From the NCBI RefSeq assembly GCF_010731595.1, contig NZ_AP022582.1, forward strand, positions 3,286,001 through 3,350,000: a stretch of DNA of 64,000 bases, in the 5' to 3' direction. This document shows positions 666 through 21,549 of this stretch, piece by piece (the first letter of the stretch is position 1; every line of letters begins with the position of its first letter). The position numbers were made by a program, and so were the translations under genes. This stretch comes from Mycobacterium seoulense (lineage in GTDB: Bacteria > Actinomycetota > Actinomycetes > Mycobacteriales > Mycobacteriaceae). Below the pieces are notes generated by a model. The model was given only the letters and a program-made list of their open reading frames with translations, ran no database searches and was not told the origin of the DNA.

Positions 666-685
666 ATTCTACCATATAGTAGAAT
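666..685. promoter_or_regulatory. Palindromic operator, regulon site 1
   Basis: ATTCTACCATATAGTAGAAT: 7-bp arms ATTCTAC/GTAGAAT are exact reverse complements around a 6-bp AT-rich centre. It lies between the divergent LLM monooxygenase and amidohydrolase genes. The same pattern recurs at 7078, 7271, 10460 and 21530. The length and symmetry suit a TetR-type repressor dimer; the identity of the regulator is inferred. Confidence 0.72.
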
Positions 686-864
686 TTATTTGTCAATCCA
701 TCCACCCCTTAAGCGCTTTCCATACGGGTGAACGCTTCTCGGCGTACCAGATTCAAGCTGTTCGACGACCCTGTCGAGGGTCATCTGTGCGCCCCACCGG
801 CGGAGTAATCTACTTAGTACAAGAATCTGTGCCTCGCTAGAAAGCCATTGACGCGCGCCTGATC

Positions 865-907
865 GTTCTATAGGCTACCGATATGATGTTCTATAGGCTA
901 ACTATAT
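865..907. promoter_or_regulatory. Tandem direct repeat upstream of amidohydrolase
   Basis: GTTCTATAGGCTA occurs at 865-877 and again at 888-900, 23 bp apart. Each copy is followed by an AT-rich hexamer (CCGATAT and ACTATAT). TTCTAT resembles one half of the 20-bp palindrome at 666. The repeat ends 86 bp before the chosen start of the amidohydrolase gene. It may be a second operator or the promoter core. Confidence 0.45.
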
Positions 908-993
908 GAATGCTCGACGTGCTCTGGCCCTCTCGCCCCACGGCGCGAGCGCTGGGAACAAGATCAAACGAAATGGAATGGAGAGTGTGTGAC

Positions 994-2175
994 GTGACCA
1001 GCGAGCCTTATGGTCTGTGGGATGCAGACAATCACTTCTATGAGGTCCGGGACTGCTTCAGCCGTCATATCGAGTCCAAGTACAAGGATGTCGCGATCCA
1101 GGCCCGGATGCACCCCGATGGCAACGAATACTGGCATTGCGGTGACAAGGTTCTGACCTTCTGCAACGTCAAGTTCGACAAGACCGAGGCTCCGGGTTCG
1201 TTCAAGGAAATCCTGAATAATCCCGAGCTGGGCGGTTTCGACGATGCGCGGGACGAATCGTCGATGTTGCCGGCTTTCCATGACCAGCAGGCGCGGCTGG
1301 AGCTGATGGACAGCCAGAACGTCGAGGGCACGATCCTATTCCCGTCGATGGCGAATGGGATCGAGCAGGATCTGCTCGACAACCCCGAGGTGCTGTATGC
1401 CAACCTGAGGTCGTATAACCGCTGGGTCGAGGAAGACTGGGGCTTCGGCAGCAATGGCCGCATTTTCGGCACGGGGTGTCTGTCGCTGGCCGACGCGGAC
1501 CTGGCCGTGGAAGAACTGGACCGCCTGCTCAAGGCGGGCGTGAAAGTCGTCTATCTGCGACCGGCCCCGGGTGGCGGAGCACAGCCCTGTTCGATTGCCG
1601 ATCCCAAGTTCGACCCGTTCTGGGCGCGCCTCGAGGAGGCGAAAGTGCCGGTTGGGTTCCACGTGTCAGCCGGTTTCTTCGACGCGTCGACCGTGTGGGG
1701 CGAGAAGCCCCGGCCGGGAACGCGCGACACCTCGGCGTTGCAGTTCGCGATGTTCCACGTCGAGATTCCCATCATGACCACGCTCGCGGCGATGGTCCTG
1801 CACAATCTGTTCGGCCGCTTCCCGGGACTGCGGGTCATCAGCGTCGAGCATGGCTGTGGATGGGTCCCCTATCTGTTGAAGACGCTCAACAAGGCAGCGT
1901 GGTGGGGACGTTTTGGCGATTGGCCGGGCGGCACGCTCCCTGATCGCCCATCGGAGATGTTCAAGCGCAATGTCTATGTCGTTCCCTTTCACGAGGACAA
2001 CACGCCCGAACTGGTCAAGCGCATCGGCGCGAACCGCGTGTTGATGGGCTCGGATTATCCCCACGCGGAGGGGCTGGCCCAGCCAGCCGAATTCGCGGAG
2101 GGGCTCACCGACCTGGACCCGGGTTGCGTGCACCGGATCATGCGTGACAACCTGCGCGAGCTACTGATGAACTGA
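994..2175 (+). CDS. Amidohydrolase-2 (PF04909) family metal-dependent hydrolase/decarboxylase
   Basis: A 393-residue TIM-barrel protein of the ACMSD-like amidohydrolase-2 family. It shows the N-terminal metal motif DADNHFYE, a central block ISVEHGCGWVPYLL and the C-terminal metal block MGSDYPHAEGL. Members hydrolyse or decarboxylate ring-cleavage products and cyclic ketones in aromatic, terpenoid and steroid breakdown. I chose GTG 994 because GGAGAG lies 8 nt upstream and homologous motifs begin at once; an in-frame ATG at 973 and another start at 910 also exist. The gene is one of three paralogues in the window (also 5842 and 11743). A strong hairpin region follows its stop. Confidence 0.85.
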   Translation: MTSEPYGLWDADNHFYEVRDCFSRHIESKYKDVAIQARMHPDGNEYWHCGDKVLTFCNVKFDKTEAPGSFKEILNNPELGGFDDARDESSMLPAFHDQQARLELMDSQNVEGTILFPSMANGIEQDLLDNPEVLYANLRSYNRWVEEDWGFGSNGRIFGTGCLSLADADLAVEELDRLLKAGVKVVYLRPAPGGGAQPCSIADPKFDPFWARLEEAKVPVGFHVSAGFFDASTVWGEKPRPGTRDTSALQFAMFHVEIPIMTTLAAMVLHNLFGRFPGLRVISVEHGCGWVPYLLKTLNKAAWWGRFGDWPGGTLPDRPSEMFKRNVYVVPFHEDNTPELVKRIGANRVLMGSDYPHAEGLAQPAEFAEGLTDLDPGCVHRIMRDNLRELLMN

Positions 2176-2178
2176 ACC

Positions 2179-2246
2179 CCGGCAGTCGGCTGCCGGTTCG
2201 CCGTTAAGCCTGCCGCCACCTCGCGGCAGATATCTGCCGCGAGGTG
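2179..2246. terminator. Double hairpin, likely transcription terminator
   Basis: Two stem-loops follow the stop at 2175. The first is CCGGCAG-TCGG-CTGCCGG (2179-2196). The second (2217-2246) is a perfect 30-bp palindrome with 15-bp arms starting CACCTCGCGG and centred on GATATC. There is no T-run, which is usual for mycobacterial terminators. It separates this gene from the convergent enoyl-CoA hydratase operon. I see no gene in 2247-2457. Confidence 0.65.
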
Positions 2247-2457: not shown

Positions 2458-3264
2458 TTAGCGTGCTTCCCATACGGGTGCACGCTTCTCGGCGAACGCG
2501 CGCGGCCCCTCCTTCGCGTCCTCGCTGGCAAGGAGTGCCTCGCCCTCCCGTGCGACTCTCGCCCACTTTGGTTCCTCGGCTTCGATGATGCGGTCATCGG
2601 CTCCGTAGGCCACGCGCTTGCTCGCCTGTACGGATAGCGGTGCATTCACGGCGATCTGCTCGGCGAGCTGCAGCGCATACTCCACCACCGTGCCGTCGGG
2701 CACGACCCTGTTCACCAATCCCCAACGTGCCGCCTCGGCAGCCGAAATCGGGTTGCCCGTATACAGCAGTTCGAGTGCGACCTTGCGCGGCAGCTGCTCG
2801 ACGATACGGAAGACGCCACCCGCACCGGCAATCAAACCGCGCTTCACCTCCGGCAGGCCGAATACGGCCCGCTCCTCCGCCACGACCAGGTCGCTCGCAA
2901 GCGCCAGCTCTGTGCCGCCGCCGAGCGCTGACCCGTTGACGGCGGCGATGACCGGCTTGTCGATGAAGTGATGGACGAGTCCGGCGAACCCCCATTCTGG
3001 ATGGTCCGGATGCAACACGCTCTCGCCGCGCGACAACGCCTTGAGGTCGGCCCCTGCGCAGAACGACTTGTCACCGGCACCGGTCACCACGACCGCCCAG
3101 ACTGTCGGATCCTGCTGCGCCGCCTCGAGCGCATCACCGACGGCCGTACTAACCGCTTGGTTCACCGCATTGCGGGCGTCGGGTCTGTTGATAGTGATGA
3201 CGAGGACCCGTCCGGACCTCCGGATGAGTGCCGCATTCGTGGTCACGGCCTCCGACGTTGTCAC
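2458..3264 (-). CDS. Enoyl-CoA hydratase/isomerase (crotonase) family protein
   Basis: A 268-residue crotonase-fold protein, probably hydrating a 2-enoyl-CoA in beta-oxidation. The oxyanion-hole segment is SFCAGADLKAL near residue 72. NGSALGGGTELALASD near 110 carries the first catalytic Glu position, and FGLPEVKRGLIAGAGG near 135 the second. The GTG start overlaps the thiolase stop by 4 nt (GTGA), so the longer upstream reading frame is rejected. It is the last gene of a leftward operon: amidohydrolase, acyl-CoA dehydrogenase, thiolase, hydratase. Confidence 0.9.
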   Translation of the reverse strand: MTTSEAVTTNAALIRRSGRVLVITINRPDARNAVNQAVSTAVGDALEAAQQDPTVWAVVVTGAGDKSFCAGADLKALSRGESVLHPDHPEWGFAGLVHHFIDKPVIAAVNGSALGGGTELALASDLVVAEERAVFGLPEVKRGLIAGAGGVFRIVEQLPRKVALELLYTGNPISAAEAARWGLVNRVVPDGTVVEYALQLAEQIAVNAPLSVQASKRVAYGADDRIIEAEEPKWARVAREGEALLASEDAKEGPRAFAEKRAPVWEAR

Positions 3265-4403
3265 ACCAGCTCCACGATGGTCGCGTTGGCCTGCCCGCCA
3301 CCTTCGCACATCGATTGCAGCCCATACCTGATGTTGTTCGCCCTCATGTGATGGATCATGGTCGTCAGCAGTCGGGCACCTGAGCCCCCGAGGGGATGGC
3401 CGAGCGCGATCGCGCCGCCGTTCGGGTTCAACAGCTTCTCGTCCGCGCCGATCTCGAGCTGCCATGCCATCGGCACCGGTGCAAACGCCTCGTTGATCTC
3501 GAACACCCCGATGTCGCCGACGTTAAGTCCAGACTTGCGCAGCGCCTTCTGGGTGGCAGGAATAGGTGCGGTGAGCATCAGGACCGGATCGGCGCCCGCG
3601 AGCACGGCGGTGTGCACGCGAGCGATCGGCGTGCAGCCGAGCTCCCGGGCCTTCTCCCCCGACATGATCAGCAGCGCCGCCGAGCCATCCGAGATTTGTG
3701 AGGCGTTGCCCGCGTGAATGACGCCGTCCTCCTTGAAGGCCGGCTTGAGACCAGCGAGCGTTTCTACCGAAGTTCCGCGCCGAATACCTTCATCGGCTGT
3801 CACGACGGAACCGTCGGCGCGTCGAATGGGCACAATCTGGTCATCGAAAACGTGCGAATCCTGTGCGGCCGCGGCCTTCTGGTGGGATTGAGCGGAGAAC
3901 TCGTCGAGTTGTGTTCGGCTCAGTCCCCAACGCTCGGCGACCAGCTCCGCTCCCACACCTTGATTTGGGATTCCGTAGCGTGCTTGAAACCGCTCGGGGA
4001 AAGGGCCGGCGCCGAATTCGGCCGCAGAACCGATGGTCACCTGGGACATCGACTCCACTCCCCCGGCGACCACGACGTCGTACTGCCCGGCGATCACGCC
4101 GGCGGCGGCGAAGTGCAAACTCTGCTGACTCGATCCGCATTGCCGATCGACCGTCACGCCGGTGACCGTGTCCGGCCATCCGGCAGTCAGCGCCGCGGTG
4201 CGTGCGATGTCACTGGACTGTTCGCCGATCTGGCCAACACAACCCCAGATCACGTCGTCGACGACGGCGGGATCGACGCCGGCTCGGTCCACCAGCGCGG
4301 CGAGTACTTGGGCGGATAGCTCCGCGGGGTGGACGTCGGCCAGCCCGCCGTTGCGCTTACCGACGGGCGATCGAACAGCCTCTACGATGTATGCGTCGAC
4401 CAT
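3261..4403 (-). CDS. Acetyl-CoA C-acyltransferase (thiolase, FadA family)
   Basis: A 380-residue thiolase that should cleave a 3-ketoacyl-CoA with CoA. The nucleophilic Cys lies in VTVDRQCGSSQQSLHFAA (near residue 90), the catalytic His in GGAIALGHPLGGSGAR (near 340), and the second Cys in SMCEGGGQANA near the C-terminus. ATG 4403 starts the family sequence MVDAYIVEAVRSPVGKRNG, with AGAAGGGAA about 9 nt upstream. It is translationally coupled to the hydratase by a 4-nt overlap. All three catalytic positions are intact. Confidence 0.93.
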   Translation of the reverse strand: MVDAYIVEAVRSPVGKRNGGLADVHPAELSAQVLAALVDRAGVDPAVVDDVIWGCVGQIGEQSSDIARTAALTAGWPDTVTGVTVDRQCGSSQQSLHFAAAGVIAGQYDVVVAGGVESMSQVTIGSAAEFGAGPFPERFQARYGIPNQGVGAELVAERWGLSRTQLDEFSAQSHQKAAAAQDSHVFDDQIVPIRRADGSVVTADEGIRRGTSVETLAGLKPAFKEDGVIHAGNASQISDGSAALLIMSGEKARELGCTPIARVHTAVLAGADPVLMLTAPIPATQKALRKSGLNVGDIGVFEINEAFAPVPMAWQLEIGADEKLLNPNGGAIALGHPLGGSGARLLTTMIHHMRANNIRYGLQSMCEGGGQANATIVELV

Positions 4404-4532: not shown

Positions 4533-5783
4533 TCAGAACTTATAGGCGCCCGACAGGAGATACTTGGCGATGGTGCGCCGCTGAACTTCTGGCGGACCCT
4601 CGCTGATTCTCGACACGCGTGTCGTGTGCCAGCCATGGATCATCGCCGCTTCGTTGCTCAGGCCGATCCCGCCCAGGATCTGCATTGACCGGTCGTACAC
4701 GCGGTACATCGCCTCGGCGACGAGCGCGTGGCTCATCGCGGACTCAAATCGTGCCTGATCCCCGGCGTCGTGCTTGCGCGCCACGTCGAGCGACGCCAAA
4801 CGCGAGGTGTAAATGTCAATGCAGTTGTCGGCAAGCATGTTTTGGATCGACTGATGCTCACTCAGCGTCTTGCCGAATGTTTTGCGTACCTTCGCATAGT
4901 CGACGGCCTTATCGTTCGCCCACCGGCCCAGACCGATCAGCCGCGCGAGCTTCGTCATCTTCAGCAGGCCAGAGCCCTCCATCGCGACACGGAAGCCCTC
5001 GCCAACTTCACCGAGCCGGTACTGATCCGGGATGCGGACGTCGTTGAAGGTGAGGATTGCTTCTTCGCCGCCGATTTCGTCGAACACCTTGACGATCGAG
5101 TACAGGTCGTATCCCGGAACATCGGTGGGCACGTAGAAGCCCGTCAATCCTCCCTTTCGCGCCGCAAAGCGCTCGCGGTCGGTGATGGCGAACGTGATCA
5201 AGAAGTCAGCGGTCGGAGCCCACGAGGCCCATTGCTTTGTGCCGTTGAGGACCCAGTGGCCTCCGTCACGGACAGCGGTGGTGGTCATCATCCAGGCGTC
5301 GGAGCCTGCGTCGGGCTCCGACATCGCAAATGATCCCTGTACCTCGCCGCGCAGGAGCTTGGGCACCAGATCAGCCTTAAGAGCGTCGGATGCGTAGGTC
5401 CACAACGCCGTCGGACCTGTGCTCGCGTGTGCGAGGACCTGGAAGGCCAGCTGCGTCTGGGGTGAGCCATACCGGTGACAGAGAGCCTCGAATACTTCGA
5501 AGTACAGTTCGGCACTCAGCCCGCCGCCGCCGAGTTCGGTAGGGCAGAACATCGTGTAGAAGCCGGCCTCGGCCGAAGCCATCCGCGCAGCCCGACGGGC
5601 CTGAACTACCTCGTCGGCGATGCGCCCGTCCTCGCGCCAGTACAGTCGCGGATCATGCAGAGCCGCCTCGATGGGTTGCTGAATTTTCGCGACTTCTCTG
5701 TCGATGAAGGCGAATAGCGCATCACACACCTCCTTGGCGCCCGGAGCGGCGGGCTCGATGTCGTGATTTGTTGCGACGGCCAC
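4533..5783 (-). CDS. Acyl-CoA dehydrogenase (FadE family)
   Basis: A 416-residue flavoprotein dehydrogenase with the family blocks FAMSEPDAGSDAWMM (near 150), HWVLNGTKQWAS (near 175) and the C-terminal RISEGPPEVQRR. There Glu occupies the position of the usual YEGT catalytic base. FGKTLSEHQSIQNMLAD is the FAD-binding helix region. It would introduce the alpha,beta double bond in the acyl-CoA handled by the downstream hydratase and thiolase. The GTG start has GGGAG about 8 nt upstream. The 129-bp gap to the thiolase is compatible with one operon. Confidence 0.92.
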   Translation of the reverse strand: MAVATNHDIEPAAPGAKEVCDALFAFIDREVAKIQQPIEAALHDPRLYWREDGRIADEVVQARRAARMASAEAGFYTMFCPTELGGGGLSAELYFEVFEALCHRYGSPQTQLAFQVLAHASTGPTALWTYASDALKADLVPKLLRGEVQGSFAMSEPDAGSDAWMMTTTAVRDGGHWVLNGTKQWASWAPTADFLITFAITDRERFAARKGGLTGFYVPTDVPGYDLYSIVKVFDEIGGEEAILTFNDVRIPDQYRLGEVGEGFRVAMEGSGLLKMTKLARLIGLGRWANDKAVDYAKVRKTFGKTLSEHQSIQNMLADNCIDIYTSRLASLDVARKHDAGDQARFESAMSHALVAEAMYRVYDRSMQILGGIGLSNEAAMIHGWHTTRVSRISEGPPEVQRRTIAKYLLSGAYKF

Positions 5784-5841: not shown

Positions 5842-7029
5842 CTAATCCTGAAGACAGGCTTCTACGTCAATGTGATACAGGCGGGCCGCATTTTCGTAGA
5901 AGATCTTGCGGCACGCGTCGATGGGCAATTCGTTGAGCGTCTCGTCGACCACGTCGCGCGGAGACATCGCGGTCGAGGCCGGCCCGGGAGACAGGCTCGT
6001 CGGGTGGGGGAAGTCCGTCTCGAACATCAGGTTGTCGGCGTACGCCGCGCCCATGTAGCGCACGGTTTCGCGTTCGAACCAGTAAGTGGTGTAGATCTGG
6101 TTGCGGAAGTAGTGGCTGGGAAGTTCGCGATCCGGATGAGCCTTCGCAGCACCGGAGTTCTTCCAGTTCCAGTCGGCACTCTCGATCAGGTAGGGGATCC
6201 ACCCGAAGCCGCTTTCGACATTGACAAAGTTCAGGCCCGGGTATTTGTGACACACTCCGGACAGCAACAGCTCGGACACGTTCTCGCACAGACCCATCAA
6301 CGACATCGTGGTCTCCTGCGCGTAGTCGGCCGGGCCCTGGACGTCCTTGATCATGCGAACCCAGTCCTCTTCGGTCTGAGATTGATATCCGACATGGAAG
6401 TTAACGGAGAGCTGACGTTCCTCGGCCGCCTTCAGGATCGGGGCCCAATGGTCTTCCCGCAGGCGCGGCAGGCCCAACTTGTAGGGCTTGGCTATGAAGT
6501 TGATTCCGCGGTGCCCATTGTCGTGGCACCGGTTCATCTCCTTCACCGCCTCGTCCAGGTCCCAGAAGGGCAGCGTCGTAAGGCAAACGAACCGTTCCGG
6601 AGCCACAGAAGCGAACTCGGTCAGGAAGTCGTTGTAGGCGCGGATGCAATCCAAGACGAGTTCGGGCTCGTTGTAGCCCATGAAGGCGTCCATGGAAAAC
6701 GCCAGTAGGTTGGGGTACGGAACCTCGGCAGCGATCTTCATCGCGTCCATCCGCTTCACCCGCTCCTTGGCATCGAACGCGGCGGGGTCCGCCGTCTCCG
6801 CGGACGGCGGATGCTTTGGCGGATACTCGTGCCACCCGGCCATCGCATAGCCGGACACCCCGGACAGTCGGCGCCCCCCGATGATCCAGATGTCTTCGCC
6901 CCGGCGCTCGTCGAAGACCACCTTGGGAGCGAGCTCGCTCCACTTCGAAGGCAGCCGCGACGTCCACAGATCGGGCGGCTCGCTCAGATGTGTATCGGTA
7001 TCGATGATCGGCATCACTGGGGTGCTCAA
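5842..7029 (-). CDS. Amidohydrolase-2 family metal-dependent hydrolase
   Basis: A 395-residue ACMSD-type amidohydrolase. Metal-site blocks are IIDTDTHLSEPPDLW at the N-terminus, NFHVGYQ in the middle, NVESGFGWIPYLIE near 275 and FETDFPHPTSL near 345. I chose TTG 7029 because a perfect AAGGAGG (7038-7044) sits 8 nt upstream; a longer TTG start at 7059 would place that ribosome site inside the coding region. It is the first gene of the leftward beta-oxidation operon and lies directly behind the palindrome at 7078-7097. The role is probably hydrolysis of a ring or lactone intermediate before CoA-dependent degradation (inference). Confidence 0.88.
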   Translation of the reverse strand: MSTPVMPIIDTDTHLSEPPDLWTSRLPSKWSELAPKVVFDERRGEDIWIIGGRRLSGVSGYAMAGWHEYPPKHPPSAETADPAAFDAKERVKRMDAMKIAAEVPYPNLLAFSMDAFMGYNEPELVLDCIRAYNDFLTEFASVAPERFVCLTTLPFWDLDEAVKEMNRCHDNGHRGINFIAKPYKLGLPRLREDHWAPILKAAEERQLSVNFHVGYQSQTEEDWVRMIKDVQGPADYAQETTMSLMGLCENVSELLLSGVCHKYPGLNFVNVESGFGWIPYLIESADWNWKNSGAAKAHPDRELPSHYFRNQIYTTYWFERETVRYMGAAYADNLMFETDFPHPTSLSPGPASTAMSPRDVVDETLNELPIDACRKIFYENAARLYHIDVEACLQD

Positions 7030-7077
7030 TTGAGCAACCTCCTTCTCAGGCACGGCCAACTGCAGCAGCCAGATGAC

Positions 7078-7097
7078 TTTCTACTATATAGTCGAAA
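7078..7097. promoter_or_regulatory. Palindromic operator, regulon site 2
   Basis: TTTCTACTATATAGTCGAAA: arms TTTCTAC/GTCGAAA match at six of seven pairs around a TATATA centre. It lies 48 bp upstream of the TTG start of the amidohydrolase-led operon. The AT-rich centre could also be the -10 element, which would put a bound repressor on the promoter itself. Confidence 0.72.
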
Positions 7098-7270
7098 CTA
7101 GCATTTCGTTAGGACGGAACGCAACAAGCATCCGACGCCGTCGATCACGTCCGCGCAGCCTCGCTTGAGGGTCCGCGGCCGCGGGTGGCGGCCTACTGCC
7201 ACCGCATGCATTCGAGCGGCTGCCGGAGCCCGGTAAGCGACGCATGACGACCGAACACGCCAGCGCCGCT

Positions 7271-7290
7271 ATTCTACCTTGTGCTAGATT
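7271..7290. promoter_or_regulatory. Palindromic operator, regulon site 3
   Basis: ATTCTACCTTGTGCTAGATT has the two half-sites ATTCTAC and CTAGATT with the same 6-bp spacing as the other sites. It ends 34 bp upstream of the GTG start of the flavin reductase, and so supports that start over an upstream ATG at 7244 that would put the site inside the gene. Confidence 0.6.
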
Positions 7291-7324
7291 CTGTTGCCGT
7301 ACCGAATCTTGCCCGAAGGCTGCC

Positions 7325-7819
7325 GTGACTGCTTCGTCGTTCGACCACGCACTGCTGCGAGATGTATTCGCCTGTCACCCCACGGGAATCGTGTTCATCG
7401 GCGCCATGGTCGATTCCGCTCCGTGCGGAATGGCCCTCAGTGCGTTTACGCCCGTATCGCTTGCCCCGCCCCTGGTTTCGGTGTGCGTGCAGAACAGTTC
7501 GTCGACCTGGCCTCGCCTTCGCACGTGCGGCCGCCTTGGCATCAGCGTGCTGAGCCACGGTCACAGCGGCGCCGTCCCGTCACTGTCAGCGAAGACGGGC
7601 GGCCGCTTCTCCGGCGTCACGGTCGTCTCATCTCCGAGCGGCGCCGTTTTCCTTGGCGGGTGCAGTGTGTGGATCGAGGCCAGTCTTTACCAGGCCGTCG
7701 AGGCCGGGGATCACAGCATCGTCATATTGCAGATCACCGACATCACCCGGCATGACGATGTACAACCAATCGTTTTCTATCGCAGCCGGTGCCATGCGCT
7801 GGCCGTCGTCGAAGCGTGA
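7325..7819 (+). CDS. Flavin reductase family protein (FMN-binding split barrel)
   Basis: A 164-residue protein of the flavin-reductase-like family, the small partner of two-component monooxygenases, which supplies reduced FMN or FAD. Family signatures are LRDVFACHPTGIVFIGA near residue 15, GMALSAFTPVSLAPPLVSVCV near 40 (flavin-binding block), FSGVTV, and the terminal block AGDHSIVILQITDI. GTG 7325 follows GAAGG (7315-7319). The partner is probably the LLM monooxygenase at 1-630, which shares the upstream operator. A short gap leads to the co-directional SDR. Confidence 0.83.
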   Translation: MTASSFDHALLRDVFACHPTGIVFIGAMVDSAPCGMALSAFTPVSLAPPLVSVCVQNSSSTWPRLRTCGRLGISVLSHGHSGAVPSLSAKTGGRFSGVTVVSSPSGAVFLGGCSVWIEASLYQAVEAGDHSIVILQITDITRHDDVQPIVFYRSRCHALAVVEA

Positions 7820-7864: not shown

Positions 7865-8737
7865 ATGGCAGGAGTGCAGGATCGGGTCATCGTCGTCACC
7901 GGAGCCGGGGGCGGCTTGGGACGCGAGTATGCATTGACGCTCGCGCGAGAGGGTGCCAGCGTTGTGGTCAATGATCTCGGCGGGGCACGCGACGGCAGCG
8001 GCGCCGGGCAGAACATGGCCGACGATGTGGTCGAGGAGATCCTGGACGCCGGCGGGCGCGCAGTGGCCAACTACGACAGCGTGGCCGAGCCAGCGGGTGC
8101 CGAAAACATCATCAAGACCGCGCTCGATGAATTCGGCAAGATCGACGGCGTCGTCAGCAACGCGGGCATTTTGCGTGACGGCACCTTCCACAAGATGACG
8201 TTCGACAACTGGGACGCCGTGCAGAAGGTGCATCTCTACGGCGGGTACAACGTCATCCGCGCCGCGTGGCCGCACTTTCGCGAGCAGCACTTCGGCCGCG
8301 TGGTCGTCGCCACCTCGACCAGCGGGCTGTTCGGCAACTTCGGCCAGGCCAACTACGGCGCGGCCAAACTGGGACTTGTCGGGCTGATCAATACGCTTGC
8401 GCAGGAGGGCGCAAAATACGACATCATGGCCAACGCCGTGGCGCCCATCGCCGCGACGCGCATGACGCAGGACATCATGACACCGGAGGTCTTCGAGCGC
8501 TTGACACCCGAGTATGTCGCGCCCGTGGTGGGCTACCTGATGACGGAGGAGAACTCCGACAGCGCTTCGGTGTTCATCGTGGGCGGCGGCAAGGTGCAGC
8601 GCGCCGTGTTGTTCCAGACCGACGGCGTGACCTTCACCGGGGCGGCGCCGAGCATCGACGATGTTGCGGCGAAGTGGGACGAGATCACTGACGTCTCAGC
8701 CGCCAAGCTGGCCACCTTCGACGTCGACGCGCTCTAG
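7865..8737 (+). CDS. Short-chain dehydrogenase, (3R)-hydroxyacyl-CoA dehydrogenase type
   Basis: A 290-residue SDR resembling the dehydrogenase domain of peroxisomal multifunctional enzyme 2. The nucleotide-binding motif TGAGGGLGREYAL is at residue 13; VVVNDLGGARDGSG is typical of this subgroup. SNAGILRD follows near 97, and the catalytic Ser/Tyr/Lys lie in STSGLFGNFGQANYGAAK near 155. It should oxidise a 3-hydroxyacyl-CoA with NAD(P), the beta-oxidation step not covered by the leftward operon. ATG 7865 follows AGGAAGG. It ends in a strong bidirectional hairpin. Confidence 0.9.
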   Translation: MAGVQDRVIVVTGAGGGLGREYALTLAREGASVVVNDLGGARDGSGAGQNMADDVVEEILDAGGRAVANYDSVAEPAGAENIIKTALDEFGKIDGVVSNAGILRDGTFHKMTFDNWDAVQKVHLYGGYNVIRAAWPHFREQHFGRVVVATSTSGLFGNFGQANYGAAKLGLVGLINTLAQEGAKYDIMANAVAPIAATRMTQDIMTPEVFERLTPEYVAPVVGYLMTEENSDSASVFIVGGGKVQRAVLFQTDGVTFTGAAPSIDDVAAKWDEITDVSAAKLATFDVDAL

Positions 8738-8789: not shown

Positions 8790-9542
8790 TTACGCCTCGT
8801 AGCCGTCGGTGCCTGCCCGCGCTATCACGACCCGACCGATGACCGAGCGCGCCGACATCCTCAGCAGGAACTCGACCAAGGTCGCCACGTCTTCGGCCGG
8901 GATCATTTCCTCGGGCGCGATGCGGCCACGTACCCACTCCGACATGTCGGTGTCGACGTAGGCAGGCGCGATCGCGGTAGCAGATATGCCGGTGCCCGAC
9001 TCTTCGGCGTTCAGCGTGTCCACCAGCGAGGCAATCGCGGCCTTCGAGGCGCCGTACGCAGCCAGTTGGGCCTCGGCGTAGATGGCGGTGATCGAGGAAA
9101 GCACGATGATCTTGGCCCCCTCAGACGGATGCCGAGCGACCGCCGCGCGGAGCATCGGCAAGGCTTCCTGGATCAGGACGAAGGGGTTCCGGAAGTTGAC
9201 CGCGATGGTCTTGTCGAGTCGCTTCAGCGGGTAGTCGGCGATCAACCCTGCCGTACCGACGCCGGCATTGAGTATCAATGCCGACATGTCGCCGTATTCG
9301 TCACGGTGCCGCCGGATCAGACCGACCGGGGCATCCGGATCAGCGATGTCCGCGGCGACGGAAAGTACTGCAGGCGCGCCTAATTCGCGGAGTTCGTCGC
9401 GCACCGCCACCAGGGCTTCTTCGTTGCGAGCGGTGATGGTAAGCGCCATGTTCCGCTCGGCCAGGCGCCGTGCGATAGCCAATCCGATCCCGCGAGAGGC
9501 GCCGGTGATGAGGGCAGAACGCGCATGCGTGCCGTCGGCCAT
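8790..9542 (-). CDS. Short-chain dehydrogenase/reductase
   Basis: A 250-residue classical SDR with the Rossmann motif LITGASRGIGLAIAR at residue 10, LILNAGVG near 88 and the catalytic set VLSSITAIYAEAQLAAYGASK near 140-160. ATG 9542 shares one base with the stop of the upstream SDR (TGATG), so the two are translated in tandem. NAD(P)-linked alcohol/ketone conversion is expected; the substrate is unknown. Confidence 0.9.
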   Translation of the reverse strand: MADGTHARSALITGASRGIGLAIARRLAERNMALTITARNEEALVAVRDELRELGAPAVLSVAADIADPDAPVGLIRRHRDEYGDMSALILNAGVGTAGLIADYPLKRLDKTIAVNFRNPFVLIQEALPMLRAAVARHPSEGAKIIVLSSITAIYAEAQLAAYGASKAAIASLVDTLNAEESGTGISATAIAPAYVDTDMSEWVRGRIAPEEMIPAEDVATLVEFLLRMSARSVIGRVVIARAGTDGYEA

Positions 9543-10369
9543 CACGCTCGACTCGGGGACGTCTCGAACGCGGCGTCGATCTTTCGGAATCGGCGCGCGA
9601 TCGGCTCGCGGCACTCCTCGTGAGTGAACAAGTACAGCTCGTTGGAACCGATTGCGTCGACGACGATCTTCGCGGCGTCGTGGGGCGACACGATGCGGCC
9701 CGCAAATCCAGGGTCGTCGAAGTCAACATCGGAGGCGGCATTCGGACCGCCGAGGTGAGCCGGGCGATTGCGATGCGAGTGCTCGATGTTCGTCCCGACC
9801 TTCATCGGGCAGAGCACGCTGACCTTTACCAGCGATTCGCGCAGTTCACGATGCAGCGTCTCGGCGAGCGCCACAACACCGTACTTGGTGACCGAGTAGG
9901 GACCCAGTCCTGCATTGGCGACGAGGCCCGCGAACGATGCCGTGAAGATGATGTGCGCACTCCGGGCGGCCCGCACGATCGATGGGAGAAACACCTCGAC
10001 ACCATGAATGGGACCCCAGAGATTGACGCCGATCATCCACTCCCAGTCCTCGTGCGTTGCGTCGACCAGCGGCCCCGTGGCTCCCACGCCGGCGTTGAGG
10101 AACAAGATGTCGACGGGGCCGAAGTGCTGACTTGTGCGCGCTGCAAGGCTCTCGACGTCCGCACGCTTGGAGACGTCAGTACGGACTGGCAACACCTCGG
10201 TGCCGGCAGGCAGTTCCGCTGCAGCTGAGTTCAAAGCCGCCTGTTCGATGTCGGCCAGCACGAGCTTGCAACCCCGATCCGCCAGCCTTCGTGCCGTAGC
10301 CAAACCGATCCCGCTGGCGCCGCCGGTGATGACGGCGACTTTGCCCCTCAATGATTCACTCGAGCCCAT
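9542..10369 (-). CDS. Short-chain dehydrogenase/reductase
   Basis: A 275-residue SDR: VITGGASGIGLATARRLAD at residue 11, FLNAGVGATG near 88, the catalytic segment FTASFAGLVANAGLGPYSVTK near 145-165, and a long C-terminal part typical of the extended mycobacterial SDRs. ATG 10369 begins the conserved sequence MGSSESLRGKVAVITGG; an upstream start at 10432 is less likely. It is the first gene of a two-SDR leftward operon controlled by the palindrome at 10460-10479. Confidence 0.9.
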   Translation of the reverse strand: MGSSESLRGKVAVITGGASGIGLATARRLADRGCKLVLADIEQAALNSAAAELPAGTEVLPVRTDVSKRADVESLAARTSQHFGPVDILFLNAGVGATGPLVDATHEDWEWMIGVNLWGPIHGVEVFLPSIVRAARSAHIIFTASFAGLVANAGLGPYSVTKYGVVALAETLHRELRESLVKVSVLCPMKVGTNIEHSHRNRPAHLGGPNAASDVDFDDPGFAGRIVSPHDAAKIVVDAIGSNELYLFTHEECREPIARRFRKIDAAFETSPSRA

Positions 10370-10459
10370 GTGCTGACACCGTCCTTTGCTGGCACCGTGC
10401 GTGAACGCTGGGCGATCGGTATCGCGAGACACGCATCGAGAGATCGGTCGTGACCATAC

Positions 10460-10479
10460 TTTCTATATATCAGTAGATT
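10460..10479. promoter_or_regulatory. Palindromic operator, regulon site 4
   Basis: TTTCTATATATCAGTAGATT: half-sites TTTCTAT and GTAGATT with 6-bp spacing. It lies 90 bp upstream of the two-SDR operon (leftward) and 20 bp upstream of a small rightward reading frame. It is the site closest to the TetR gene at 10634-11236. Confidence 0.65.
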
Positions 10480-10523
10480 CTAGCTTAGGCTGGTGCGTAG
10501 TGACAACGAACTCTCAGGCGAGC
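10469..10523 (+). repeat. Promoter-leader repeat, copy A
   Basis: About 55 bp beginning TATCAGTAGATTC and running through GACAACGAACTCTCAG to GCGAGCG. It is repeated, with scattered substitutions and a 2-bp indel, at 27105-27158. It includes the right half of operator site 4 and the start of the small reading frame at 10500. Confidence 0.7.
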
Positions 10524-11742: not shown

Positions 11743-12882
11743 ATGACCAAGATCTGGACGAATTCTGGTGATTCACACTTTCTGGAACCCGACGATCTCT
11801 GGCAATCCCGGCTGCCGAAGCGGTTGGCCGAGTTGTGTCCGCGGTCGGAGAAGGATCCCGACGGTGAGTACGAGACGGTTTACGTCGACGGTCAGATCTT
11901 TCGGCGGAAGCTGCCGTCGTCGGCGATGGTGGCCTTCGTTGAGTTGGCCTCGAAGCCGCAGGGCCTGCGAGATGCCCGGGCGCGGCTCGGCGACTTGGAT
12001 CAGGAGGGCGTGTGGGGTGAGGTGATCTTTCCGTCGCTGGGCATGTGGGCCTCATCGTTCCGGACGCCGGAGCTGCTGAAGGCGTGCATGCGCGCGAGCA
12101 ATGAGTGGGCGCTTGAGGAGATCTGTGCGGTGTCACCGCGCTATGTGGTCACAGCGCAGGTCTCGACGCTGGTGGTGGACGACGCGGTGGAGGAACTGCA
12201 GTGGGCGGCCGGCAAGGGGTTCAAGGCGGTGTTCCTGCCGACGTCGCCGCACCCGAGCGCCCCGGACTGGCACCGCGACGACTGGGAGCCCTTATGGGCG
12301 GCGGCCGAGGAGGCCGGCATGGTGCTCGCGTTCCATATCGGCACCGATCCGGTGCCCGTGGAGGCCGGCAACAGTGTGACCGGCGGCGCGGGTCAGGTAT
12401 ATCGCGGCCCGGGTGGGGCCATCATGAACTACGCCGAGACGACATTCTCCGGGCAGCGGGCCACCATGAAGCTGGTGGCTTGCGGTGCACTGGACCGGCA
12501 TCCGAACTTGAAGGTGTTGATCTCTGAGGGCGGCGCGACGTGGGTTCCGTTTTTGGGTGACCGTCTGCTGGAGGGGTATCGCCAGCACCATATGGCGGTG
12601 CGGCCCAAGCTGAGCCGCAGCCCGAAGGAGATCCTCTACAGCCAGGTCTACGCGTCGTTCCAGCACGACGAGACCGCGGTGGCGGCCTTCGACCACATGG
12701 GGTATCGCAACGTGATGTTCGGCAGCGACTATCCGCACATGGAGGGCACGTTCGGCCACACCCAGGACACGCTTAAGACGCTGTTCGACGGGGTCAGCGA
12801 CGATACACGGCTGCGCATCACGCAGGGCGCGTTCTTCGAGCTGTTCCCCGACGTCCCGCCCGTACCAGCCGAAAGCATCTGA
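11743..12882 (+). CDS. Amidohydrolase-2 family metal-dependent hydrolase
   Basis: A 379-residue ACMSD-type amidohydrolase. Metal-binding blocks are SGDSHFLEPDDLW (residue 9), VLAFHIGTD near 205, VLISEGGATWVPFL near 265 and FGSDYPHMEGTFGH near 330. ATG 11743 follows GGAGG (11733-11737) at 5 nt; an upstream in-frame ATG at 11656 would include the palindrome at 11699. It heads a rightward gene series (thiolase-like, DUF35, small protein, SDR, aldehyde dehydrogenase, DUF2889). Hydrolysis or decarboxylation of a ring-derived intermediate is likely. Confidence 0.88.
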   Translation: MTKIWTNSGDSHFLEPDDLWQSRLPKRLAELCPRSEKDPDGEYETVYVDGQIFRRKLPSSAMVAFVELASKPQGLRDARARLGDLDQEGVWGEVIFPSLGMWASSFRTPELLKACMRASNEWALEEICAVSPRYVVTAQVSTLVVDDAVEELQWAAGKGFKAVFLPTSPHPSAPDWHRDDWEPLWAAAEEAGMVLAFHIGTDPVPVEAGNSVTGGAGQVYRGPGGAIMNYAETTFSGQRATMKLVACGALDRHPNLKVLISEGGATWVPFLGDRLLEGYRQHHMAVRPKLSRSPKEILYSQVYASFQHDETAVAAFDHMGYRNVMFGSDYPHMEGTFGHTQDTLKTLFDGVSDDTRLRITQGAFFELFPDVPPVPAESI

Positions 12883-14739: not shown

Positions 14740-14757
14740 GGTCAGAGGAGAAAACTC

Positions 14758-15573
14758 GTGGGGAATCTCGAAGGCAGAGTCGCCTTCATCACCGGCGCGG
14801 CTCGAGGGCAAGGTCGCGCGCACGCCGTCCGCCTGGCCAGTGAAGGCGCCGACATCATCGGGCTGGACATCTGCGCCGACATCGACTCCATGGACTATCC
14901 CAACGCGACCCCCGCTGACCTCGAAGAGACAGTCAAGCTCGTTGAGGATCGTGGCCGACGAATTGTGGCCCGCCAAGCCGACGTTCGCGACGCCGACGCC
15001 GTCAACGCTGTTGTCCGCGAAGGTGTCGCCGAATTCGGGCGCCTGGACATCGTGGTGGCCAACGCCGGAATCGTGCGACTCAGTGAAGGCTCGAAGCGAC
15101 GCGAGATCTTCCGCGACATCATCGACGTGAACTTGGTCGGTGTGTGGAACACCGTCGAGGCGGCGATCCCCGCTCTGATCGACGGCGGCCGCGGCGGATC
15201 GATCGTGATCACCAGCTCGAGCGCTGGTTTGAAGGCCACCGGCACCGACCGTGCAGGTGGCCAGGCCTACGCCGCCGCCAAACGCGGTCTCGTAGCTTTG
15301 ATGCAGGTGTGGGCCAACCACCTTGGGCCACAATCAATCCGAGTCAACACCATCCACCCAACCGGGGTGGCTACCGGCATGGTGATGAACGAGACGATGG
15401 CCAAGCTATTCGAAGCCAACGACGCGGCGCTGACCGCCATGCAGAACGTCCTTCCGATACAGATCCTGCAACCCGAAGATGTCGCGGAAGCTGTCGCATG
15501 GCTGGTTTCCGACGCGGCCAAATTCATCACAGGCACCGCTTGGCCCCTCGACGCCGGCTTCGCGGTTCGGTAA
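14758..15573 (+). CDS. Mycofactocin-type SDR oxidoreductase
   Basis: A 271-residue SDR of the group tied to the redox cofactor mycofactocin. It begins GRVAFITGAARGQGRAHAVR with the characteristic ARGQGR glycine motif and has ADIIGLDICADID after strand 2. VVANAGIV follows near 100 and the catalytic SSSAGLKATGTDRAG then AYAAAK near 143-178. Members such as carveol dehydrogenase hold NAD tightly and pass electrons to mycofactocin. It probably oxidises a secondary or terpenoid-like alcohol. GTG 14758 follows GAGGAG. Confidence 0.88.
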   Translation: MGNLEGRVAFITGAARGQGRAHAVRLASEGADIIGLDICADIDSMDYPNATPADLEETVKLVEDRGRRIVARQADVRDADAVNAVVREGVAEFGRLDIVVANAGIVRLSEGSKRREIFRDIIDVNLVGVWNTVEAAIPALIDGGRGGSIVITSSSAGLKATGTDRAGGQAYAAAKRGLVALMQVWANHLGPQSIRVNTIHPTGVATGMVMNETMAKLFEANDAALTAMQNVLPIQILQPEDVAEAVAWLVSDAAKFITGTAWPLDAGFAVR

Positions 15574-18593: not shown

Positions 18594-18657
18594 GTTTCGG
18601 GTGTCATCCTGGCGTTACACACGTCACACCATGCGTCTTTCCCCATGAGGAGCGTTT

Positions 18658-21117
18658 ATGGCAGCAGTAACTCCGGCACCGGGCCGGCCGCCCCTCGCTG
18701 ATTTGCTGGTTGTCGATATGTCCACCACCCTGGCGGGCGCATACACCTCGCAGTTCCTCGCCGATTGCGGCGCCAACGTAATCCTGGTTGAACCGCCCGA
18801 CGGCAGCTCCCTCCGACAGCTCCCGGGATGGCCCGCGCTGCTACGCGGCAGACGTTCGGTCACCCTCGATGTCCACGAACCTGACGACCGTCAACGACTC
18901 TGGCAGCTGCTAGAAAACGCCGATGTGCTCGTGACGACCGCGCGGCCGGCGGACGGGAGCCGCCTCGGACTCACGCCCGAATTGGTGACACAGCGCTGCC
19001 CCAGACTTGTGCACGCGTCGATTACCGGGTGGGGGTCGAAAGGCCCGTGGCGAAACTACAAGGGCTGGGAAGCGTTGGTCCTGGCCAAGATCGGCATCAT
19101 GCACGAGAAGCGTGGCGTCACCCCACGAAGCGGGCCTGCCTACGTCTCGGCCCCCTATGCGTCTTGGGGCGCGGCCCACGCCGCCGTGCAAGGAATCCTG
19201 GCAGCATTGATCGAGCGGGATTCGAGCGGTCGCGGTCAAGTCGTCGAATCCAATCTCGTAACGGGCGTGGGGGCGAACGATACCTGGAACTGGTTCCACG
19301 AATTAGTGCTCGACCGGTATCCGGGCGCCTTCGAACCAGCGGGCGCGGTGTACGACGAACAGAGCCGCCCGCTGATCCCCCTGGTGTATTCGGTCTTGGC
19401 GGCCCCCACCAAAGACGGTCGCTGGTTGCAGTTCGCCCAGGTATCGCCGCGATTGATGCATGCCTGGCTAACAGAGCTCGACTTGTTGACCGAACTTGCG
19501 AACCCAAAATGGGAGGGTTTTCCCACGCTACCCACGCAAGAACTGCGCACGGAATTCTGGGACCTGATGATCGAGCGGGTCAGGGCGCGCACTCTCGCGG
19601 AATGGCAGCAGGCATTCGATGCAAACGAAAATCTAAGTGCCGAGATTTTCCGCACACCCAGCGAGTCACTGAACCATCCCCAGACTCTTCATCAAGGCCG
19701 AGCTGTGACTGTGGACGACCCCGAGCTTGGCCCGGTGCACCAGCCGTCGACGTTGATCCACTCCGATGGCCAGCCACTCGCGGCGTTGCGTCCAGCTCCG
19801 GGCGTAGGACAGCACAATGCGTCGGTGTGGGGGTTGCGCCGGGAGCCGCCCAACCTCCCTGCGGCCGGTGAGGTCGCTGCGGGACTTCCTCTACATGGGA
19901 CGACGATCCTCGAATTCGGTTCGATGTTCGCCGGGCCCTACGGCGCCACGCTGCTCACCGACCTCGGTGCGCGGGTAATCAAAGTCGAACCGCTCGACGG
20001 CGACAACATCCGAAACATGCTTCCGTTCCCGGAGGCTGGTGGTGCAAAGGTGCTGCAAGGCAAGGAAAGCTGCGCGGTCGACTTCACCAAACCAGAGGGG
20101 CTCAGCCTGATATACGAGCTGGTAAAGCGTTGCGACATCGTCGTTCAGTGCTTCCGCGGGCAAGCAGCTGAACGAGCCAAGATCGACGAAGCTACGCTCA
20201 AGGCGATAAACCCCGATTTGGTAGTCCTGAGCACCTCCGGCTACGGCCTCGATGGGCCATTCGGACATCGACCCGCGTACGCACCGTCCATCGCCGCGGC
20301 GTCCGGTCTGGCCGTTCTCGACAGCGGCGACGCAATGCACCCGCCGACCGACTTGGATGACCTGCACCGCACGGCCGCCACGCTGTTCTCCGGCGGAACG
20401 ATTTCTGCGGTGCAGGCCGACGGTATCGCCGCGCTGGGTGTCGCCTCCGCGTTGCTCGTGTGCCTTTACGCGAAGCGGCGCGGCATCGATATGCACCACA
20501 CCGAAACCACCATGCTGGGCACGGTTCAGAACGCCCTCATCTGGTCGAACGTCAGCTATCGCGACCAGCCGCCGGTGCCGACAGCCGACGCGGAGTTCCT
20601 CGGCCTCACGGCCCTCTACCGGCTGTACCGCGCCGCCGACGGTTGGGTGTTTCTCGCCGCTCCCCTGGCGCGAGAATGGGAACCTTTCGCGAAGGCTATG
20701 CAGGCCTACGTCGACCTGCTGGGCGACGAGCGCTTCGTCGATACCGCATCACGGGCACGCAACGACGATGTCTTGGCACGCGTCTTGGAACAGGTCTTCC
20801 TGACGAAGACCAAACTCGAGTGGGAGTACGAGCTGACCGCACAGGACGTCGGATGCGTCGAAGTCGCCGACCGCAATTCGGGCATCGTCCTGCAAAGCGA
20901 CACGTGCCGCGATGCTGGGTATTCGGTGGAAGCTGACAGTCCCATCTTCGACAAACATCTTCGGCTGGCACCGCTTTACCGGTTCTCCCGGTCGTTGACA
21001 AAGGCCAGCGGAGGCTGCACCGTGGGTCAGCACACGACCGCAATTCTGAGCGAGATCGGCATCGACGACAACCAGATCGCTGATCTGCGGTCGCGAGGGA
21101 TCATCGCATGCGGTTAA
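18658..21117 (+). CDS. Tandem two-domain CaiB/BaiF family III CoA-transferase
   Basis: An 819-residue fusion of two family III CoA-transferase domains. Domain A (about 10-390) begins LADLLVVDMSTTLAGAYTSQ; domain B (about 405-819) begins TTILEFGSMFAGPYGATLLT. These enzymes move CoA between carboxylic acids through an aspartyl-CoA anhydride. The segment that normally reads GYD...G has KGWEALVLAKIG in domain A (Glu instead of Asp) and PAYAPSIAAASG in domain B (Ala instead of Asp), so the usual nucleophile is missing from both. ATG 18658 follows GAGGAG. Whether the protein is catalytic, or acts as a CoA-ester-binding partner, is open. Confidence 0.88.
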   Translation: MAAVTPAPGRPPLADLLVVDMSTTLAGAYTSQFLADCGANVILVEPPDGSSLRQLPGWPALLRGRRSVTLDVHEPDDRQRLWQLLENADVLVTTARPADGSRLGLTPELVTQRCPRLVHASITGWGSKGPWRNYKGWEALVLAKIGIMHEKRGVTPRSGPAYVSAPYASWGAAHAAVQGILAALIERDSSGRGQVVESNLVTGVGANDTWNWFHELVLDRYPGAFEPAGAVYDEQSRPLIPLVYSVLAAPTKDGRWLQFAQVSPRLMHAWLTELDLLTELANPKWEGFPTLPTQELRTEFWDLMIERVRARTLAEWQQAFDANENLSAEIFRTPSESLNHPQTLHQGRAVTVDDPELGPVHQPSTLIHSDGQPLAALRPAPGVGQHNASVWGLRREPPNLPAAGEVAAGLPLHGTTILEFGSMFAGPYGATLLTDLGARVIKVEPLDGDNIRNMLPFPEAGGAKVLQGKESCAVDFTKPEGLSLIYELVKRCDIVVQCFRGQAAERAKIDEATLKAINPDLVVLSTSGYGLDGPFGHRPAYAPSIAAASGLAVLDSGDAMHPPTDLDDLHRTAATLFSGGTISAVQADGIAALGVASALLVCLYAKRRGIDMHHTETTMLGTVQNALIWSNVSYRDQPPVPTADAEFLGLTALYRLYRAADGWVFLAAPLAREWEPFAKAMQAYVDLLGDERFVDTASRARNDDVLARVLEQVFLTKTKLEWEYELTAQDVGCVEVADRNSGIVLQSDTCRDAGYSVEADSPIFDKHLRLAPLYRFSRSLTKASGGCTVGQHTTAILSEIGIDDNQIADLRSRGIIACG

Positions 21118-21189
21118 AGGTGTCGACGGGCTTGTTGCGTTGCCGTGTGTGGCGCCAAGCCGGCGACATCGGCCACGATAGTGGCTCAC

Positions 21190-21334
21190 GCTCCGCCAGC
21201 GCAGCAACGAAGACACCAATCGTTTTCTGCGGCAGTACTTCCCGGACAACACCACCCTGAACGCGTATACCGTCGAGCGTCCACTCGCAGTCGAGTACAA
21301 GATCAATCAGCCCACGCTGGCCTGTCGGTGGTGA
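21190..21334 (+). mobile_element. IS30-family transposase C-terminal remnant
   Basis: A frame reading SNEDTNRFLRQYFPDNTTL and onward to a TGA at 21334 matches the end of the IS30-type integrase core (the SNENTNGLLRQYFPKGT-like block). Only the last 45 codons remain. It sits between the CoA-transferase and the AveC-like gene, in an otherwise gene-free 475 bp. Confidence 0.65.
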
Positions 21335-21369
21335 TCACTTGTTCCTGTTCTACGACAGATTCTCTGCGC

Positions 21370-21386
21370 AATTAGCTAAGCTAGTT
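21370..21386. promoter_or_regulatory. Near-perfect 17-bp palindrome
   Basis: AATTAGCTAAGCTAGTT pairs at seven of eight positions around a central A. It lies between the IS30 remnant and the AveC-like gene, 144 bp upstream of operator site 5. Possible binding site; nothing else supports it. Confidence 0.35.
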
Positions 21387-21529
21387 GACCTCTCCGCGAT
21401 ATAGGCATCTCAAATCTCGCCTAGGGCAGCAGCTCTCGCGCACTCGGTTTCGGCCCGCCTGAGAAAAGGACGACGGACAGATTCGGCGCCGCGCCGATGG
21501 CACTCACGCTCACCAGCGCTATTGATAAT

Positions 21530-21549
21530 TTTCTAATAAATGGTAGATT
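21530..21549. promoter_or_regulatory. Palindromic operator, regulon site 5
   Basis: TTTCTAATAAATGGTAGATT: half-sites TTTCTAA and GTAGATT with 6-bp spacing, as at 10460. It lies 43 bp upstream of the AveC-like gene and ties that gene to the catabolic island 10-20 kb away. Confidence 0.65.

Follow-up and report, generated by a model that had tools for sequence, protein, structure and literature searches.

A probable new TetR regulon in Mycobacterium seoulense with arrays of shared half-sites at a 17-bp pitch and an operator common to double TetRs across phyla

Introduction

A stretch of 64,000 nucleotides of the Mycobacterium seoulense genome (the window; positions 3,286,001-3,350,000 of G000, a single contig of 5,531,300 bases, 5.53 Mb) contains several transcription units with catabolic genes that are preceded by similar palindromes. 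A sequence-only reading of the window had proposed that five of these palindromes tie the genes into one regulon and that they are bound by the TetR protein encoded at position 10634 (TetR10634). Are the palindromes operators and, if so, which regulator reads them? Judged from their letters and distribution, they are a real, cluster-specific, regulon-like operator set. We consider it likely that they are the operators of a single TetR repressor, TetR-A, which is encoded upstream of the window and would exert cluster-wide control. Unless a record is named, positions of up to five digits refer to the window and larger ones to the genome concerned.

Results

The palindromes are concentrated in one gene cluster

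The five 20-mers at 666, 7078, 7271, 10460 and 21530 were found at the coordinates given for them and matched WTTCTAN-N6-STMGAWW without any mismatch. When up to two mismatches were allowed on both strands, the window contained 23 matches against 4.07 expected, a number that none of 100 dinucleotide shuffles reached. Over the whole genome, the exact pattern occurred at 8 distinct places, all within 33 kb (3,274,598-3,307,549) and consisting of the five in the window and three just upstream of it. With one mismatch, 7 further distinct places appeared at 3,209,017-3,286,807 and 14 elsewhere, the latter with a chance-like scatter. The genome-wide scan, which the sequence-only reading had proposed as a check, thus gave clustered rather than random matches.

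The surroundings of the sites were also as described. Site 666 precedes a luciferase-like monooxygenase (LLM) gene (start at 630), site 7078 an amidohydrolase gene (start at 7029), site 7271 a flavin reductase gene (start at 7325), site 10460 short-chain dehydrogenase/reductase (SDR) genes (start at 10369) and site 21530 an AveC-like gene (start at 21593); two of them, 7078 and 7271, are located in the same divergent gap and 666 in a different one. Additional sites, absent from the earlier list, were present at 805, 822, 7286, 21340 and 21545 and as a pair at 29685/29702. Most of the catabolic genes that had been assigned to the regulon are indeed joined by these sites, but the amidohydrolase gene at 11743, the thiolase-like gene at 12887 and the aldehyde dehydrogenase gene at 15592 have no regulon site in front of them.

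The refined 24-base-pair (bp) motif, ANWWTCTR-N8-YAGAWWNT, marks about 110 kb of G000, over which it precedes 25 called gene heads, a head being defined by a site of at least 16 bits within 420 bp. A first matrix, grown from 14 sites, gave 41 sites of at least 11 bits in the 210 kb around the window; control DNA from the same genome (220 kb, in 11 stretches of 20 kb) contained none at this threshold with the final matrix. Because the first matrix had been trained on the very region that it scored, it was retrained on the sites of two other genomes only (G098 and G224, see below), although these sites had originally been chosen with the first matrix. The retrained matrix gave the five reported sites scores of 21.8-32.6 bits. 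At 14 bits or more it returned 29 positions in 3.203-3.316 Mb; neither the remainder of the 210 kb nor the control, where the maximum was 12.7 bits, contained any. A simple AT repeat at 27041-27064 (26.1 bits) is included in the count of 41 and in the count of 31 used below, but we regard it as a false match and not as an operator.

Sites were sought in 198 genomes of the genus and in a few selected others, including G224 and G293. Exact copies of the refined motif were found at 7 places in G000, 5 in G098 and one place in each of 12 others (14 of the 198 genomes in total). G098 has a compact orthologous cluster at 4,267,483-4,319,949, with proteins that are mostly 75-95% identical, and 22 of the 23 sites of at least 11 bits in the 160 kb fetched fall in it. 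In G224, which was found through a search with TetR-A, the orthologous cluster extends over about 1,947,136-2,018,382. With at most one mismatch, the share of places inside the cluster was 20/21 in G000, 12/14 in G098 and 18/19 in G224; five comparison genomes had 0-6 places each. Reciprocal best hits, taken as orthologs, were found for 18 of the 25 G000 heads in G098 (14 with a site, 4 without) and for 21 in G224 (19 with, 2 without), and 14 heads with a site are common to all three genomes.

Position, footprint and spacing of the sites

Only 1 of 31 sites of at least 16 bits in G000, and none of 19 in G098 or 28 in G224, was centred in a called gene, in spans that are respectively 73%, 85% and 74% coding. 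The median distance from a site to the nearest start was 95, 87 and 96.5 bp in the same order. The half-sites were 93% identical between G000 and G224 (23 pairs) and 94% between G000 and G098 (10 pairs), as compared with 76% and 62% for the 8-bp centre and 63% and 53% for the flanks, the latter being a low estimate because the flanks were compared without gaps. In this comparison, only pairs with a flank alignment score of at least 60 were kept from the 31 G000 sites, and a few of these are mis-paired or paralogous (3278101 with 4299183; 3228652 with 1968544; 3315685 and 3248214, each with 2018365 and 4269744). Conserved half-sites with variable centres and flanks are the pattern of contact by a dimer, not that of a repeat.

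This bears on the possibility that, instead of operators, the palindromes represent a promoter element or some DNA element that is mobile or repeated. Promoter duplication does occur, since the pairs 3248214/231 and 3315685/702 appear to descend from a single ancestral region. Yet flanks and centres vary between sites while mainly the half-sites are kept, and almost every copy lies between genes, at a median of 87-97 bp from the start that it faces, so that we find this explanation extremely unlikely. The duplicated promoter itself consists of near-identical tandem operators, at 29685-29725 before an acyl-CoA dehydrogenase gene and at 3,248,214-3,248,254 of G000 before an LLM gene.

Operators also occur in tandem. 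Pairs of sites offset by exactly 17 bp were found 6 times in G000, 4 times in G098 and 7 times in G224 (17 in total). When both ends of the 78 sites were considered, 26 of 156 site-ends had a third half-site at +17, as compared with a mean of 1.1 and a maximum of 6 for the other offsets between 9 and 99 bp. The averaged profile of the right half showed no peak at +17; the signal appears only in the thresholded count because only a minority of site-ends carry a third half-site. The middle element of a tandem pair reads YAGAWTCTR and is common to the two neighbouring operators. With a distance of about 5 bp between its triplets, or half a turn of the helix, two dimers could be accommodated on almost opposite sides of the DNA.

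TetR-A is the favoured regulator

TetR-A (212 amino acids) is encoded by the plus strand of G000 at 3,274,748-3,275,383 (14748-15386 of record L031), 10.6 kb before the window. It has a single TetR_N domain (PF00440, 62 bits) and a TetR_C_24 domain (PF17932, 58.3 bits), both above cut-off. Its promoter contains an operator in all three genomes (3274596 in G000, 4294318 in G098 and 1996566 in G224), with the centre 130-140 bp before the start. Among 396 genomes of the genus, TetR-A was found at 86-100% identity in only three, G000, G098 and G224, all of which carry a site array. Two of them, G000 and G098, are those in which the scan of 198 genomes had revealed arrays; the third, G224, was located via TetR-A and shown afterwards to have the array. 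A search among 148 relatives at E <=1e-55 returned only the genome of origin, and close relatives were found in metagenomes (P0102-P0106). In the AlphaFold model (mean predicted local distance difference test 89.6, predicted template modelling score 0.82), the fold of TetR-A is close to those of FadR, AibR and KstR2.

A second TetR with a palindrome of its own

The regulator proposed initially was TetR10634 (10634-11236, minus strand, 200 amino acids, PF00440 only), described as the only intact local regulator. This description holds within 666-21549, but a LysR gene lies at 23476-24396, and eight further regulator-like genes, LysR included, are present within 100 kb. Regulator-like and mce genes were named by eye unless run through Pfam, which confirmed the LysR, two TetRs and a GntR.

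TetR10634 is an intact TetR whose 3' end is 153 bp from site 10460, and in G224 its 74% identical ortholog c52 is also located inside the cluster region. However, site 10460 lies behind TetR10634, facing the SDR genes, and not in its promoter; it is kept before these SDR genes in G098 and G224, where no TetR adjoins it. Orthologs sharing 73-85% identity are encoded by G051, G117 and G183 (two copies in the latter), genomes with 1, 1 and 0 places, respectively. The G098 ortholog (68%) is at 364,532, 3.9 Mb from the sites at 4.27-4.31 Mb, and c52 is about 2.6 kb or more from the nearest listed site. Co-occurrence of TTCTA/TAGAA sites with TetR10634 orthologs therefore fails in G051, G117, G183 and G098, G224 having both in one region. 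By look, the recognition-helix region is alike in TetR-A and in the double TetRs described below, and different in TetR10634.

TetR10634 is, moreover, accompanied by another palindrome. All eight ortholog loci that were fetched (two of which, L048 and L100, are probably the same contig) encode, together with TetR10634, an amidohydrolase that is 88-94% identical and a thiolase-like protein. The gap before this amidohydrolase gene contains, in 10 of 10 loci (the eight plus G000 and G224), a palindrome with at most two mismatches to TGAAAAA-N3-TTTTTCA, and a second copy (at most three mismatches) is present in 7 of the 8 fetched loci. In the whole of G000 this palindrome occurs once exactly (TGAAAAATGCTTTTTCA, 11699-11715), where it is the predicted TetR10634 operator, and once with 2 mismatches. 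Since the TetR10634 module has its own conserved palindrome, two regulons meet in the window. To this module belong the amidohydrolase gene at 11743-12882 (plus strand; assigned by domain search and ortholog loci) and the thiolase-like (12887) and aldehyde dehydrogenase (15592) genes. From these comparisons, the proposal that TetR10634 binds the TTCTA/TAGAA palindromes and controls the gene set is very probably wrong, and we give it hardly any credence. TetR10634 would instead be a second switch, acting on the neighbouring amidohydrolase module through a TGAAAAW-N3-WTTTTCA site.

An identical copy of TetR10634 is present in record L047 (Mycobacterium sp. 4858). Beside the gene, the minus strand at 11229-11540 encodes what looks by eye like the N-terminal remnant of a family III CoA-transferase; seven other loci have at the same place a full-length CoA-transferase, 47-50% identical to the protein of 18658-21117.

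Operators beside TetR-A homologs in other taxa

G140 and G293 encode TetR-A homologs (49% identity) that are double TetRs. In both, the gap before the homolog holds the top-scoring site of the 40 kb fetched, CGATTCTAACCTAATTCAGATTCG (17.2 bits) and TTATTCTAACCTAATTCAGATTAG (18.6 bits), respectively, and three 78% identical relatives of the G140 protein also have such a site. Plasmid context was examined for 8 of 68 plasmid records. On pDK3 of Rhodococcus sp. DK180 (L122; homolog at 47%), GAATTCTAACCTAATCCAGATTAG is found between the CoA-transferase and TetR genes, with a 17-bp pair further on. Four roseobacter plasmids (L123, L127-L129), which are related to each other and hence not independent, have TTCTAAC-N4-GTTAGA beside the TetR gene (41-43%) and AAATCAAACAYATGTTAGAAAA in a second gap; the one roseobacter homolog that was translated, from a Sulfitobacter plasmid, is a double TetR. 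The double TetRs of G140, G293 and the Rhodococcus and Sulfitobacter plasmids are 427-466 amino acids long and 42-49% identical to TetR-A. On L122, L123 and L127-L129, catabolic clusters adjoin the homologs with TTCTAA/TTAGAA palindromes; those of the roseobacters include an annotated AtuA-like gene in 3 of 4 cases and biotin-dependent carboxylase genes in all 4.

These observations, together with the distribution of the motif, also concern the possibility that the sites are read by some other regulator encoded elsewhere, e.g. the orthologue of Rv0767c, whose palindromic 'motif X' was reported for a Mycobacterium grown on phytosterol. Rv0767c is an M. tuberculosis gene, so that a widespread orthologue would be expected, whereas the exact refined motif is absent from 184 of the 198 genus genomes; in addition, the operator accompanies TetR-A homologs in several taxa. 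Although motif X, too, precedes cytochrome P450 (P450), SDR and aldehyde dehydrogenase genes according to the consulted part of PMC6593523, we consider a regulator of this kind quite improbable.

Weighing the assignment to TetR-A

Several points weigh against TetR-A as the reader of the sites. The evidence that pairs it with the operator consists of sequence comparison and a fold model, and the first matrix was trained on G000 itself. Its co-occurrence with the sites, as scanned in 198 genomes and a few others, is confounded by that of the cluster as a whole. Three G000 sites of at least 16 bits have no start facing them within 600 bp. Among the eight plasmid homologs, three (Polaromonas, 40%; R. 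ruber, 43%; R. opacus PD630, 47%) lack a convincing site, the best scores before these TetRs (11.2, 17.3 and 17.0 bits) belonging to AT-rich or poorly matched sequences. In the fold comparison, DarR, a cyclic di-AMP sensor, ties with FadR and KstR2, which does not fix the effector; on account of this tie, a CoA thioester is a guess that draws on the gene set and on the group of folds.

The last point is that another regulator, a GntR/FCD protein encoded at 3217301, is present at the cluster edge in G000, G098 and G224 with 91% identity and might read the sites; among the regulators compared, none but TetR-A and this protein is conserved at about 90% across the three gene sets. It is, however, found in 57 of the 396 genomes (E <=1e-100) and fails the genus-wide test: the site scan of 198 genomes covered 29 of these 57, and 26 of the 29 proved free of exact sites, the exceptions being G165 with a single one and the array genomes G000 and G098. 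Its promoter contains no site of at least 11 bits in G098 or G224 and, in G000, only a 14.6-bit site over the start codon. That this protein is the regulator appears most unlikely, and TetR-A remains the candidate that we favour. The other regulators were set aside as well: the LysR a142 and the TetR-like proteins a54, a80, a147 and a153 lack a full-length ortholog in one or both of the other gene sets, and the TetR a90 is 60-61% identical to b73 and c79, neither of which is preceded by a site.

Comparison with known TetR systems

The operator of KstR2 (Rv3557c), AnCAAGnnCTTGnT, had no match in the G000, G098 and G224 regions, and TetR-A is only 24-26% identical to KstR2. KstR (Rv3574) resembles the proposed system in that one TetR repressor acts through a short palindrome located before many operons of lipid-ring catabolism and before its own gene (PMC1995591; this and the other papers cited below were consulted in part, to which our statements are limited). 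Its consensus is TnnAACnnGTTnnA, with the core TAGAAC-N2-GTTCTA (PMC1995591), and the pattern studied here is distinct from it, as the sequence-only reading had stated: none of the five sites holds AAC-N2-GTT. TnnAACnnGTTnnA matched 6 times in 210 kb of G000 (once near a site, at 3264179), twice in G098 (never near a site) and 3 times in G224 (once near a site, at 1985640), so that the distance between a KstR consensus and a site falls to 40 bp or less only at a single place in G000 and at its G224 counterpart. At this place (3,264,128-3,264,259; 4128-4259 of L031), the KstR-like TATAACGTGTTCGA is found 27 bp from a predicted TetR-A site, before an AveC-like gene. DNA and protein are identical there to those of G224, while most neighbours are 88-97% identical, which suggests a recent exchange. 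Good KstR-type palindromes also occur at 3,140,163, 3,159,602 and 3,177,006, 26-63 kb before the cluster, and a KstR-controlled set may therefore lie nearby.

The best match to TetR-A by sequence in the PDB is Mce3R, the double-TetR repressor of M. tuberculosis (9b7y, 58.4 bits, in two stretches), from which TetR-A differs by having one TetR unit and not two in one chain. The Mce3R operators are described as 25-bp, asymmetric and non-palindromic (PMC11667970), which sets them apart from the inverted repeats found here. AtuR/RdmA, MftR and EdcR are likewise TetR repressors, of terpene, mycofactocin or steroid gene sets, but their operators, AGCAAGCGCTTGG (PMC9973270), T-N2-GGCA-N5-TGCC-N2-A (PMC8728441) and TnnCnnTACnAnTnGTAnnGnnA (PMC8700777), do not match the present sites. 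The KstR, KstR2 and AtuR motifs were thus rejected as the identity of the sites, their letters disagreeing or being absent. No matching motif was found in the consulted text of PMC4482099 (in which motif logos are images), PMC3511530 and PMC2277422.

Operators and genes of the window

The operator at 664-687 (30.4 bits) is an exact copy of the 24-bp motif and precedes the LLM gene, whose 5' part occupies 1-630 on the minus strand (PF00296, 194.8 bits) and which extends to genome position 3285524; none of the 25 NCBIfam models shown for this protein exceeds its cut-off. Matching sites are found at 2008152 in G224 and 4279666 in G098. The tandem operators 805-828 and 822-845, 17 bp apart, precede the amidohydrolase gene 994-2175 (plus strand, PF04909), with a counterpart at 1970286/1970303 in G224, before the orthologous c65. 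The minus strand then encodes, by domain search, an enoyl-CoA hydratase (2458-3264), a thiolase (3261-4403) and an acyl-CoA dehydrogenase (4533-5783), followed by the amidohydrolase gene 5842-7029 (minus strand, PF04909) and its operator at 7076-7099 (27.4 bits).

A second 17-bp tandem (7269-7292 and 7286-7309; counterparts at 2012921/2012938 in G224 and 4275536/4275553 in G098) precedes the flavin reductase gene (7325-7819, plus strand, PF01613). SDR oxidoreductases identified by domain search are encoded at 7865-8737 (plus strand), 8790-9542 (minus) and 9542-10369 (minus), the last two forming the pair behind the operator at 10458-10481 (28.9 bits). Before the AveC-like membrane protein gene (21593-22726, plus strand, PF17198) lie a strong and a weak site 17 bp apart (21528-21551 and 21545-21568), and 165 bp before the strong site another weak one (21340-21363, 16.5 bits), also present in G224 (13.7 bits). 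Beyond the interval of the sequence-only reading, the tandem operators 29685-29708 and 29702-29725 (counterparts at 2018365/2018382 in G224 and 4269727/4269744 in G098) precede genes for an acyl-CoA dehydrogenase (28468-29610) and a family III CoA-transferase (27169-28398), both on the minus strand and identified by domain search.

Gene content of the whole cluster

The domains found in the cluster comprise, on the CoA side, CoA ligases, family III CoA-transferases, acyl-CoA dehydrogenases, hydratases, thiolases and an acetoacetate-decarboxylase-like protein and, for oxidation, several LLM oxidoreductases (two of them in F420 subfamilies above cut-off), the flavin reductase, a P450 and a Rieske oxygenase. 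There are also an epoxide hydrolase, mycofactocin-coupled SDRs, PF04909 amidohydrolases, a CbbQ/NorQ-type AAA protein with its VWA partner and three AveC-like proteins. Not every one of these genes has a site of its own. In NCBIfam, TetR-A, the first LLM and the Rieske protein received no name above cut-off, and neither the AveC-like protein nor a 120-amino-acid, EthD-sized protein had any match. From its gene content, the pathway looks catabolic: a cyclic substrate would be oxidised, its ring opened and the product degraded by beta-oxidation. This substrate would possibly be a lipid-like compound, perhaps a terpenoid.

By eye, genes resembling an mce operon flank the cluster in G000 (about 3,192,962-3,202,522) and in G098 (4,323,478-4,332,891); their proteins are only 54-63% identical between the two genomes, as compared with mostly 75-95% for those of the cluster.

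A search of the open-access literature found no description of this regulon, which is not proof of its absence, and searches on AveC with mycobacterial catabolism and on the letters of the motif returned nothing on this system.

Discussion

We propose that dimers of TetR-A would bind each predicted operator and thereby silence the cluster. At tandem sites, the middle element would serve two dimers at once, each approaching it from an almost opposite side of the helix. Release of TetR-A may be brought about by a CoA thioester derived from the growth substrate, as for KstR2 and FadR.

A broader and more tentative proposal, to which we lean less than to its contrary, is that TTCTA(A)-N-(T)TAGAA represents an ancient class of operators that is recognised by single TetRs such as TetR-A as well as by Mce3R-type tandem double TetRs, in organisms ranging from mycobacteria and Rhodococcus to the roseobacters. 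Within the mycobacterial cluster, this class might have grown into overlapping arrays with a 17-bp pitch and shared half-sites, which would drive an extensive, undescribed pathway that uses AveC-like membrane proteins and acts on a cyclic compound of terpenoid or steroid type.

What we describe is probably a new TetR regulon, with its 17-bp arrays of shared half-sites and an operator that is common to double TetRs across phyla. For a large catabolic regulon, it supplies a regulator-operator pair that can be put to the test, the obvious neighbouring regulator being very probably the wrong one. Three AveC-like genes are thereby placed behind one and the same operator. Finally, since this operator also occurs beside Mce3R-like double TetRs, it is relevant to the question of how related DNA is read by TetRs of the single and the tandem kind.

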